Assembly (NCBI GenBank): GCA_040752395.1
Contig: JBFMHD010000133.1
Location: 1 to 7,793, forward strand
Direction: 5' to 3'
Length of the DNA stretch: 7,793 bases
Source of the DNA: JBFMHD01 sp040752395 [NCBI: Candidatus Hydrogenedentota bacterium]
GTDB lineage: Bacteria; JBFMHD01
Below are positions 1,923 through 7,793 of this stretch, piece after piece. Each line of letters begins with the position of its first letter. Position 1 is the stretch's first letter. Both the position numbers and the translations under genes were made by a program. The notes beneath the pieces are model-generated. The model saw nothing but the letters and a program-made list of their open reading frames with translations. It made no database searches and was not told where the DNA came from.

Positions 1923-2520
1923 AACTCTTCTTTAAATATAAAGGTTTGATAAAAGACTTGAGACCATTCTTGTCTGCTCTACTACATAGCAGACAACATA
2001 TCCGTGCCTCTGGATAACATTCTATATATTGAAATCTCTTTTTAATTACAGAATCATCCCATAAAATGCCTGTTAGCGGTCTGTCTTCTTTTAAATTAGT
2101 TATCACGCTGTCTTCTTTCATTATTTTTATCTCATTCTTATACATAATATAAAATTCATTTTTACCAGCCTGTATAATAGGGACAACTCTTTCTTTAAGT
2201 TCTTCGAAACTATTTAAGATGAGTTCTAATGAAGTATATCCTGCTACCTTTAGTCCCAAACCTCTAACCAAACCTAAAGCAGTAGCTACACCTATTCTTA
2301 TGCCTGTAAATGAACCTGGCCCTATATCAACAGCAATATATTTAATCTCTTTTTTTGTTAGCCCTGCCTGATTTATAGAGTGATCTATCATTGGTAGCAG
2401 ACGGCTGGAAAATTCTCTGTTAAAATAAGTCTCTGATTCAAACAGAAGTCTGCTGTCACAAGAGATAGCAACGCTCCCTTTACCACAACTTGTACTTATA
2501 CCAAGTATATACTCACTCAA
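1912..2520 (-). CDS. tsaB: tRNA t6A37 biosynthesis protein TsaB
   Basis: TsaB (YeaZ) is an inactive ASKHA-fold paralogue of TsaD. It scaffolds the TsaB-TsaD-TsaE complex that transfers threonylcarbamoyl to A37 of ANN-decoding tRNAs. The signature GPGSFTGIRIG is at 67-77, and the N-terminal strand ILGISTS (5-11) and the C-terminal PLYLKK end are typical. The usual HSxxLLP motif reads FSSRLLP at 37-43, so the histidine is absent; this is a common position of divergence. Length is 202 residues, somewhat shorter than E. coli TsaB. The start is TTG, supported by a strong GGAGGAGG at 2528-2535 (minus strand) 7 nt upstream. The gene overlaps the tsaE end by 8 nt. TsaD and TsaC are not in this window. 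Confidence 0.92.
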   Translation of the reverse strand: MSEYILGISTSCGKGSVAISCDSRLLFESETYFNREFSSRLLPMIDHSINQAGLTKKEIKYIAVDIGPGSFTGIRIGVATALGLVRGLGLKVAGYTSLELILNSFEELKERVVPIIQAGKNEFYIMYKNEIKIMKEDSVITNLKEDRPLTGILWDDSVIKKRFQYIECYPEARICCLLCSRADKNGLKSFIKPLYLKKSYVD

Positions 2521-2962
2521 GCTTTATCCTCCTCCCATCACCTCCAAGATGCTCGAAACTAATTGTTCTGAATTTATAAGATTCAATAATCTCTTTATCC
2601 AATTTATCGCCATATTCTATTAATGTTATGTAATCTTTTAAAAAAAATTCGTCTATTCCAAGACCACTTAAATCCTTTTTTTCTATCCTGTACAAATCTA
2701 TATGTGCGACAACGATTTCGTGGTTCGTAGTTCGTGACTCTGATTTATACAGATTGATTATTGTAAATGAGGGGCTGGTTATATTCACAGTAATTCCTAA
2801 GCCTTTCACCACCCCTTTTACAAAAGTGGTCTTTCCACTACCAAGCTCTCCTTTCAATATAATATTATCTCCAATTCTTATCTCCTTACTGAATTCTACA
2901 CCAAACTCTTCTGTCTCTTCGCTACTATCAGTCTCTCTCACAACCACTTCAAAAGTGCTCAT
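2513..2962 (-). CDS. tsaE: tRNA t6A37 biosynthesis ATPase TsaE, with heptad-repeat-encoded insert
   Basis: P-loop ATPase of 149 residues that drives turnover of the TsaB-TsaD complex during t6A synthesis. Walker A is GELGSGKTT (38-46). SPSFT (63-67) and HIDLYRIE (87-94) are the standard switch and Walker B regions, and IEYGDKL (115-121) replaces the usual IEW-type motif. Between NLY (70-72) and HIDLYR the protein has about 14 residues. The E. coli and B. subtilis homologues, as I recall them, have 7-8. The excess maps to ESRTTNHEI, encoded by three heptad units at 2717-2737, so an intergenic-type repeat seems to have been inserted in frame. The ATG start overlaps the thiL end by 14 nt. The conserved motifs suggest a functional protein. 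Confidence 0.92.
   Translation of the reverse strand: MSTFEVVVRETDSSEETEEFGVEFSKEIRIGDNIILKGELGSGKTTFVKGVVKGLGITVNITSPSFTIINLYKSESRTTNHEIVVAHIDLYRIEKKDLSGLGIDEFFLKDYITLIEYGDKLDKEIIESYKFRTISFEHLGGDGRRIKLE
2528..2535 (-). promoter_or_regulatory. Ribosome binding site deciding the tsaB TTG start
   Basis: The minus strand reads GGAGGAGG 7 nt before TTG. It lies inside the tsaE coding end and selects the TTG as the start of tsaB. Confidence 0.7.
2717..2737 (+). repeat. Three-unit heptad array inside tsaE
   Basis: The plus strand shows ttcgtgg, ttcgtag, ttcgtga, exactly 21 nt, so the reading frame is kept. On the coding strand it gives alternating polar residues within ESRTTNHEI (75-83) of TsaE. 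The pattern matches the intergenic arrays in period and unit type. Confidence 0.7.
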
Positions 2963-3945: not shown

Positions 3946-3991
3946 TACTATTTTGCTCCTTGCATTTAACCCCTCATTTATAGGTGGTGAA

Positions 3992-4015
3992 GAAATAAGA
4001 AGTAAGAAGTATCAT
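3992..4015 (+). repeat. Heptad array, GAAGYAA class, with shared end motif
   Basis: The units are gaaataa, gaagtaa and gaagtat, followed by cat. The end gaagtatcat is identical to 7747-7756. The array lies between mce and thiL, both on the minus strand, and is partly complementary to the pyrimidine array at 4059-4100. Confidence 0.65.
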
Positions 4016-4058
4016 TACCTTAGCCTTTTATCTGATATACTTCAATTTTTTTTCATTT

Positions 4059-4100
4059 CTTACTTTTAACTTTTAACTTTTGGCTTTTTACTTTTAACTT
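4059..4100 (+). repeat. Heptad array (ttaactt class)
   Basis: Six consecutive 7-nt units: cttactt, ttaactt, ttaactt, ttggctt, tttactt, ttaactt. It lies downstream of mce on the transcribed minus strand, where it reads as purine-rich aagttaa units. Together with 3992-4012 it can form a loose A/T-rich hairpin. Apart from these two arrays I see nothing else of note in the 245-nt gap 3903-4147 except the thiL promoter. Confidence 0.75.
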
Positions 4101-4147
4101 TCTATGAGTGGGATAGTGGCATAGTTAGAGTTAAAACTCAGGAATAA

Positions 4148-6602: not shown

Positions 6603-6644
6603 TTCGGAGTTCGGAGTTCGGAGCTCGAAGCTCGAAGCTCGGTT
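6603..6644 (+). repeat. Heptad array (ttcggag / ctcgaag)
   Basis: Six 7-nt units: ttcggag three times, ctcgaag twice, then ctcggtt. The switch from the first to the second type at 6623/6624 creates a palindromic centre (gagctc), so the array can fold weakly. It lies about 40 nt downstream of the kinase stop and is more GC-rich than its surroundings. Confidence 0.8.
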
Positions 6645-6860: not shown

Positions 6861-7079
6861 TTACGTTGCTAACTCTTCACACCTCTCATAAATTAATTGC
6901 TCAAACTCAACTGGACTTAAATACCCTAATTATGAATGAAGATGATCCTCGTTATATAACTCTATCCCTTCTGAAATACCCAAAACCGCTTCCTCATATC
7001 TCTCCCAATCTGATATCCAGATAGTTTCTTCTTTAACTGTTCGTATTACTCGTTCTGTATCTGCAATTCCCGGAGCTGA
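6861..7079 (-). pseudogene. Transposase 3' remnant, IS3/IS481-type integrase core
   Basis: Reading the minus strand from 7079 gives about 72 codons that look like the C-terminal end of a DDE (rve) transposase: RVIRTVKEE, WERYEEAV, ELYNEDHLHS, then LGYLSPVEFEQLIYER, ending at a stop at 6861-6863. The YN...HS.LGYLSPVEFE pattern is the standard tail of IS3- and IS481-family transposases, and the Glu of KEE near the start fits the last DDE residue. An in-frame TAA at 6930-6932 falls between HS and LGY, where a sense codon is expected, and no upstream part of the gene is present. It is thus truncated and inactive. The minus strand just beyond its end is G-rich (about 6835-6855), possibly the old element terminus. 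Confidence 0.75.
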
Positions 7080-7091
7080 TAGGAGCTGATA
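7072..7091 (+). repeat. 10-bp perfect tandem duplication at a mobile-element junction
   Basis: ggagctgata occurs twice without a gap. It sits where similarity to the transposase ends and about 15 nt before the end of the truncated recombinase gene, so it may mark the deletion or insertion joint. Confidence 0.65.
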
Positions 7092-7106
7092 GAAAAATTG
7101 TGTTTA

Positions 7107-7700: not shown

Positions 7701-7725
7701 ATTTTCGCCTCCTTTGAGAAACTTA

Positions 7726-7756
7726 GAAGTAAGAAGTAAGAGGTGAGAAGTATCAT
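7726..7756 (+). repeat. Heptad array, GAAGYAA class, with shared end motif
   Basis: The units are gaagtaa, gaagtaa, gaggtga and gaagtat, followed by cat. The array begins ttagaag, like position 1 of the window, and ends gaagtatcat, like 4006-4015. It lies just upstream of the truncated recombinase gene. Confidence 0.75.
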
Positions 7757-7770
7757 CTTAAAATTTTTAA

Positions 7771-7791
7771 TTTTGAGTTTTGAGTTTTCAA
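7771..7791 (+). repeat. Heptad array (ttttgag)
   Basis: Three 7-nt units: ttttgag, ttttgag, ttttcaa. The array reaches the window edge and may continue beyond it. It follows the GAAGYAA array after 14 nt, so several array classes cluster here as they do at 1-257. Confidence 0.6.
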
Positions 7792-7793
7792 TT

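Follow-up and report, generated by a model that had tools for sequence, protein, structure and literature searches.

The window, by which we mean the whole 7,793-nucleotide stretch of DNA analyzed here, carries ten genes, taken as called, that together make up 82% of its length. Domain matches among them pointed to folE, tsaE, thiL, methylmalonyl-CoA epimerase, an integrase-like protein, and a uridine-kinase-like protein with an ATP cone. One further protein, which matches the TsaD family, is read as a putative TsaB, and the pgsA-like, rimI-like, and ferredoxin genes bear candidate names given by reading alone. Between these genes, and at one place within them, lie short tandem arrays, most with a unit of seven bases. 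The features that concern us are as follows.

39 to 226, no strand assigned: 7- and 8-base arrays of differing words (ACAGGCT, AGTCTTG, CGACTTG, TGTGCCTC), outside genes
1389 to 1412, no strand assigned: heptad array of AGAAGCA, intergenic
2513 to 2962, minus strand: tsaE, 149 amino acids, ATPase of tRNA t6A synthesis (PF02367, E 7.5e-31; TIGR00150)
2699 to 2764, minus strand: variable TsaE loop of 22 residues (67 to 88), SPSF to DLYR, which contains the array below (coordinates set by hand)
2717 to 2737, minus strand: heptad array of three units, TTCGTGG TTCGTAG TTCGTGA on the plus strand, occupying tsaE codons 76 to 82 (SRTTNHE) and of YYACGAA type on the coding strand
3990 to 4101, no strand assigned: heptad arrays of AAGAAGT (3990 to 4011) and ACTTTTA (4062 to 4101), intergenic
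6604 to 6642, no strand assigned: heptad array of TCGGAGC, intergenic
7725 to 7793, no strand assigned: heptad arrays of AGAAGTA (7725 to 7752) and AATTTTG (7762 to 7793), outside genes

In the first of these stretches, at least four heptad or octad words follow one another in a chain before the pgsA-like gene, with TGTGCCTC repeating at a period near 8. Arrays of the AGAAGTA type recur at three separate places (about 20 to 37, 3990 to 4011, and 7725 to 7752) with a common tail, GAAGTATCAT or GAGGTATCAG. The minus strand between 6861 and 7103 holds broken frames with a weak rve_3 match (E 0.0038, below the cut-off), which we take to resemble the end of an IS3-type transposase; a 10-base unit, GGAGCTGATA, stands in perfect tandem at 7072 to 7092 and adjoins this remnant.

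The window TsaE scored 96.4 bits against TIGR00150 (cut-off 60.1), PF02367 covered residues 12–138 at nearly full length (positions 2–120 of a 128-position model), and the P-loop GxxGxGKT is present as GELGSGKT. An earlier note on this DNA had placed three heptads in frame within the gene, and this was borne out exactly: the array runs from 2717 to 2737, fills codons 76–82, and reads on the coding strand as TCACGAA CTACGAA CCACGAA, giving S R T T N H E in the protein context ...KSESRTTNHEIVV....

We counted sites with 11 or more period-7 matches out of 12 and found 11 in the window against 0.04 expected (the mean of 100 dinucleotide shuffles, the largest of which gave 1), while the other periods from 4 to 15 gave 0 to 2 sites each. 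Ten of the 11 sites fell outside the ten called genes, the tsaE site being the exception; the window accordingly shows what characterizes heptanucleotide repeats, namely exact 7-base tandem units beyond chance, dispersed and mainly between genes. Within genes, the odds are less extreme: when all ten were recoded synonymously (1000 trials), some gene reached at least 11/12 in 6.5% of trials and 11/14 in 51.5%. Synonymous recoding of the 35-codon tsaE loop region, which was chosen post hoc, reached 11/12 at a frequency of 0.0006. On its own, the tsaE array is modest evidence against chance, and it gains weight because ten further period-7 sites lie in the same 7.8 kb.

The earlier note had also described the TsaE loop as about 6–7 residues longer than in the E. 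coli and B. subtilis proteins and had taken the added length as a sign of insertion. Seven solved chains matched, and in the five alignments displayed the window TsaE was longer in the loop by 6, 6, 7, 7, and about 4 residues. We take chains 5np9 and 5mvr to be B. subtilis TsaE and 6n9a and 6nak to be T. maritima TsaE. The argument from length to insertion did not survive a wider sample. Among 68 distinct TsaE genes, the loop from SPxF to DxYR spanned 16 residues in 7, 17 in 13, 20 in 28, 21 in 7, and 22 in 13; these genes had been selected for resemblance to the window protein or taken from a single order, so they do not sample TsaE evenly. The window loop has 22 residues, and the 13 genes of equal length have no heptads, which rules out loop length as proof of insertion. 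Being ordinary, the length proves nothing, and the codon pattern alone argues for an array: period-7 matches numbered 11/12 in the window loop and at most 8/12 in all 72 other rows (these include four repeats, L002 and L031 of L001, L236 of L190, and L237 of L186; duplicates were removed by hand for the 68, and L173 was left out, having no match to the loop expression). Subtracting 21 nt from the window loop would leave 15 residues, as in 6n9a and 6nak, a length absent among the 68 sampled genes, where the shortest was 16. A structure prediction from two sequences reached a pLDDT of 32 and was given no weight.

Distant TsaE relatives had the same loop length with different residues. A single scan of genome_contigs returned one locus, titled Ignavibacteria, at 42%, which we presume to belong to the phylum Bacteroidota in GTDB. 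TsaE matches were found in all 296 genomes searched of that locus's phylum (the best by E-value at 41% identity) and in 43 of 44 genomes of the order of G307, a genome to which we return below, where the highest identity among the matches listed was 47%. Searches of viral_contigs with TsaE, the uridine-kinase-like protein, the integrase, and ThiL returned no relatives of the window, and a TsaE alignment used as the query returned two short matches and otherwise none.

The word itself appears not to be privileged. Three consecutive TTCGTRR units occurred in at least 82 stretches of viral contigs, against at least 81 for a reversed control pattern, and in 10 of 395 genomes of the phylum of the Ignavibacteria-titled locus, where the reversed control also reached 10 by our own table count. 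Because the pattern was built on the tsaE sequence, covers just 32 strings, and is about equally common when reversed, its recurrence adds little; we therefore do not treat TTCGTRR as a special word, and the parity with the control led us to weigh the array explanation lower and chance higher. Two viral contigs with common flanks (L052 and L109) carry arrays whose first 20 bases are identical to those in tsaE. The A/G degeneracy of the other arrays, and the peptides they encode, are consequences of the search pattern and give no independent support. Stop-free frames span 51 of 100 TTCGTRR arrays from the viral contigs and phylum genomes, many of which are probably not genes.

In coding DNA, because 7 and 3 have no common factor, three pure units are read as all seven possible codons in every frame, and three pure YYACGAA units add the same seven residues, rotated, whichever frame they enter (LRITNYE, SRITNHE, PRTTNHE, or LRTTNYE, according to the unit). 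TTCGTAA, TTCGTGA, and TTCGTAG each place a stop in every frame on their own strand and none on the complement; TTCGTGG is stop-free on both strands. The strand that codes for TsaE is the open one.

One TTCGTRR match, L122, proved to lie inside a gene for a Sua5-type threonylcarbamoyl-AMP synthase (PF01300, PF03481, TIGR00057); Sua5, like TsaE, belongs to the t6A pathway, which we take as coincidence. All 15 genomes of the family of L122, which belongs to another phylum than the window, gave sua5 matches, 14 of them clear orthologues (the match in G405 was weak; those in G400 and G398 were each flagged with one stop inside). With words labeled by eye, the same site carried TTACGAA in 2 of the 14, AAACGTS in 6, GATTNNN in 4 (in one case joined to AAACGTS), and no clear heptads in 2. 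AAACGTS and TTACGAA are both widespread in these genomes: allowing up to 2 mismatches, AAACGTS arrays occurred in 13 of 15 (the reversed control gave 1 in a single genome and 0 in the other 14) and TTACGAA arrays in 14 of 15 (reversed control 0). The 14 sites (L134–L147), with one position inside a gene, differing words in close relatives, and up to 13 units, form a natural record of turnover.

The six AAACGTS copies have linkers of 42, 42, 60, 105, 39, and 45 nt with 4, 4, 7, 13, 4, and 5 units, respectively. The earlier proposal to test for in-gene unit counts divisible by three was mis-specified, in that frame constrains the total change in length, and the sua5 counts are 4, 4, 4, 5, 7, and 13. 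Counts do differ by multiples of three in five of the six, the exception being G398 with 5 units, and the G408 copy is 18 bases longer than that of G400, not 21. The words change as well: G307 has TTACGAA in 48 nt while its nearest relatives (87–89% identity) have AAACGTS, in 42 nt in the case of G400 (89%). On a sua5 tree in which 1 of 11 branches was starred, the word labels need 6 changes, where the least possible is 3; shuffled labels needed 7.3 on average and as few as observed in 30 of 200 shuffles. The words do not track the tree cleanly, and the tree does not give the number of switches.

A second case is ispG (GcpE), which in G399 (L435:3441-5456) contains GATTNNN units followed back to back by AAATCNN-like units. 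Judging from match lengths alone, the protein is 19–20 residues shorter than the G399 copy in 6 of 12 full-length relatives (G400, G307, G408, which was flagged with one stop, G405, G403, and G396) and within 4 residues of it in G272, G401, G398, G407, G402, and G406; matches in G404 and G397 were partial, the latter 16 residues shorter over its part. The G272 copy, which was read directly, is a decayed-looking version 4 residues shorter. In another gene, with a signal-peptide-like start, the heptads are of equal length in G272 and G399. AAACGTS-type arrays encoding VKRETSNV also occur in a C-terminal sorting domain in L389:8897-10279 of G399 (assigned by TIGR04183) and in the next gene (assigned by reading). 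From sua5, and from ispG by length, we hold that in-frame heptad arrays occur in housekeeping genes and vary between relatives. Since word, number of units, or length differs between orthologous sites, comparison and experiment could separate slippage from conversion and from active writing.

Arrays across these genomes were also surveyed. Period-7 arrays numbered 35 in 800 kb of G272, whereas a single simulated Markov sequence gave 7. By crude gene calls, 4 of 24, 7 of 33, and 5 of 12 arrays in three stretches lay inside genes, after very low G+C arrays had been dropped from totals of 35, 44, and 12; two of the five in the last stretch are parts of one sua5 array, and some in-gene arrays are likely to be chance. 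Comparing 22 G272 arrays (four inside called genes) with G399 left 6 unpaired and 16 paired. Three pairs were equal in length and one, outside genes, differed by exactly 7 bases; in the other 12 the difference was 14 to 248 bases, mostly with dissimilar flanks. The words differed at several sites. Because the flanks are mostly dissimilar, the 12 cannot be read as unit steps, and a contrast between multiples of 21 in genes and any multiple of 7 outside them, which we had considered, is unsupported by these pairs.

Taken together, these observations make it fairly probable that what tsaE carries in its variable loop is a heptad array, a minor one among the dense arrays of the window, which the gene tolerates. 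Tolerance can be put down to three things: the loop is free to vary in length and sequence in TsaE, the reading frame is kept, and the YYACGAA coding strand is free of stops in all frames. The array would have arisen by insertion or growth in the lineage of the window, and the most likely cause may be a heptad-biased slippage or recombination, favoring a seven-base step, that acts everywhere; within genes, its products would be filtered by frame, stops, and the tolerance of the protein. The earlier picture of an array colonizing coding DNA under frame selection is thus retained in part, resting now on the in-frame heptads of tsaE and on the variation of sua5 and ispG in another lineage, with the loop-length argument withdrawn.

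Two other accounts are possible, each clearly less likely. The first is a variant of the array explanation, in which an existing loop of 20–22 residues was overwritten by a new word with its length unchanged, through gene conversion templated by another array or through gain matched by loss. The already typical length of the window loop is what it would predict; the sua5 words of G307 and G400 likewise differ at similar lengths, and some orthologous G272 and G399 sites outside genes carry different words. Against it, the number of units also changes in sua5 (4, 7, 13), and the ispG homologues differ in length. We give this variant a little under a third of our belief. Chance, meaning that an ordinary 22-residue loop happens to have codons with period 7, fares at best as well and perhaps slightly worse. 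It gains from the synonymous recodings of all ten genes, from the frequency of 22-residue loops lacking heptads (13 of 68), and from TTCGTRR being one of many words that form heptad arrays; it is countered by the abundance of period-7 sites in the window and by the gap between tsaE and the 72 other loop rows.

A change of word at a fixed site is the part least well explained by plain slippage. One could suppose instead that a dedicated process writes and rewrites heptad arrays in place, switching words (AAACGTS, TTACGAA, GATTNNN) while keeping the 7-base step and the frame, and that the tsaE array would come from the same process in an unrelated lineage; we regard this as improbable. That the array is a functional element, binding a protein or affecting expression of the downstream tsaB-like and rimI-like genes, seems very improbable: TAACTGA arrays that immediately precede start codons have been proposed to act in regulation (PMC4679880), but the tsaE array is within a coding sequence, some 200 bases upstream from where the tsaB-like gene starts, and unrelated words fill the intergenic arrays of the window.

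What in-gene arrays offer is a record of the repeat process under selection, in which frame limits the total change in length and stops limit orientation. Heptad arrays are known as a kind, and the tsaE array is probably a further case. One survey describes simple repeats as generally suppressed in prokaryotes and those with longer units as normally or weakly over-represented (PMC4060949); in another, of 7006 prokaryotic genomes, no short periodic repeat was more abundant between genes than tandem heptamers, and their function had no clear clue (PMC6344855). Earlier work on heptanucleotides is that of Mrazek (2007), as reported in PMC4679880. No paper turned up in a full-text literature search for arrays of TTCGTAA or TTACGAA.

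Prokaryotic heptanucleotide repeats (PMC4679880, PMC6344855) resemble the arrays of the window in unit length (7), in the multiplicity of words, and in abundance between genes, whereas the window differs in its degenerate units, its several words within 7.8 kb, and its one in-gene array. Alike in coding logic are the TAACTGA arrays of Beggiatoaceae, Cyanobacteria, and Bacteroidetes, for which MacGregor makes the same point about orientation: one strand stops all frames and the other is open, with in-gene copies open, as here. Those arrays have another word, and their in-gene copies sit mostly at protein ends rather than in an internal loop as in tsaE (PMC4679880); with a unit of TTCGTRR, the tsaE array falls outside that family. 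The Rickettsia palindromic elements (PMC10969869) are alike in placing repeated DNA in frame within metabolic genes; they are palindromes of about 150 bp with a conserved ORF, whereas the tsaE array is a 21-nt direct array of tandem heptads and so lies outside that class. Finally, the GGGACCG elements of Geobacter metallireducens (PMC2700814) are tandem heptads found between and inside genes, as in the window, and they differ in having a single word, four units per element, and 49 copies.
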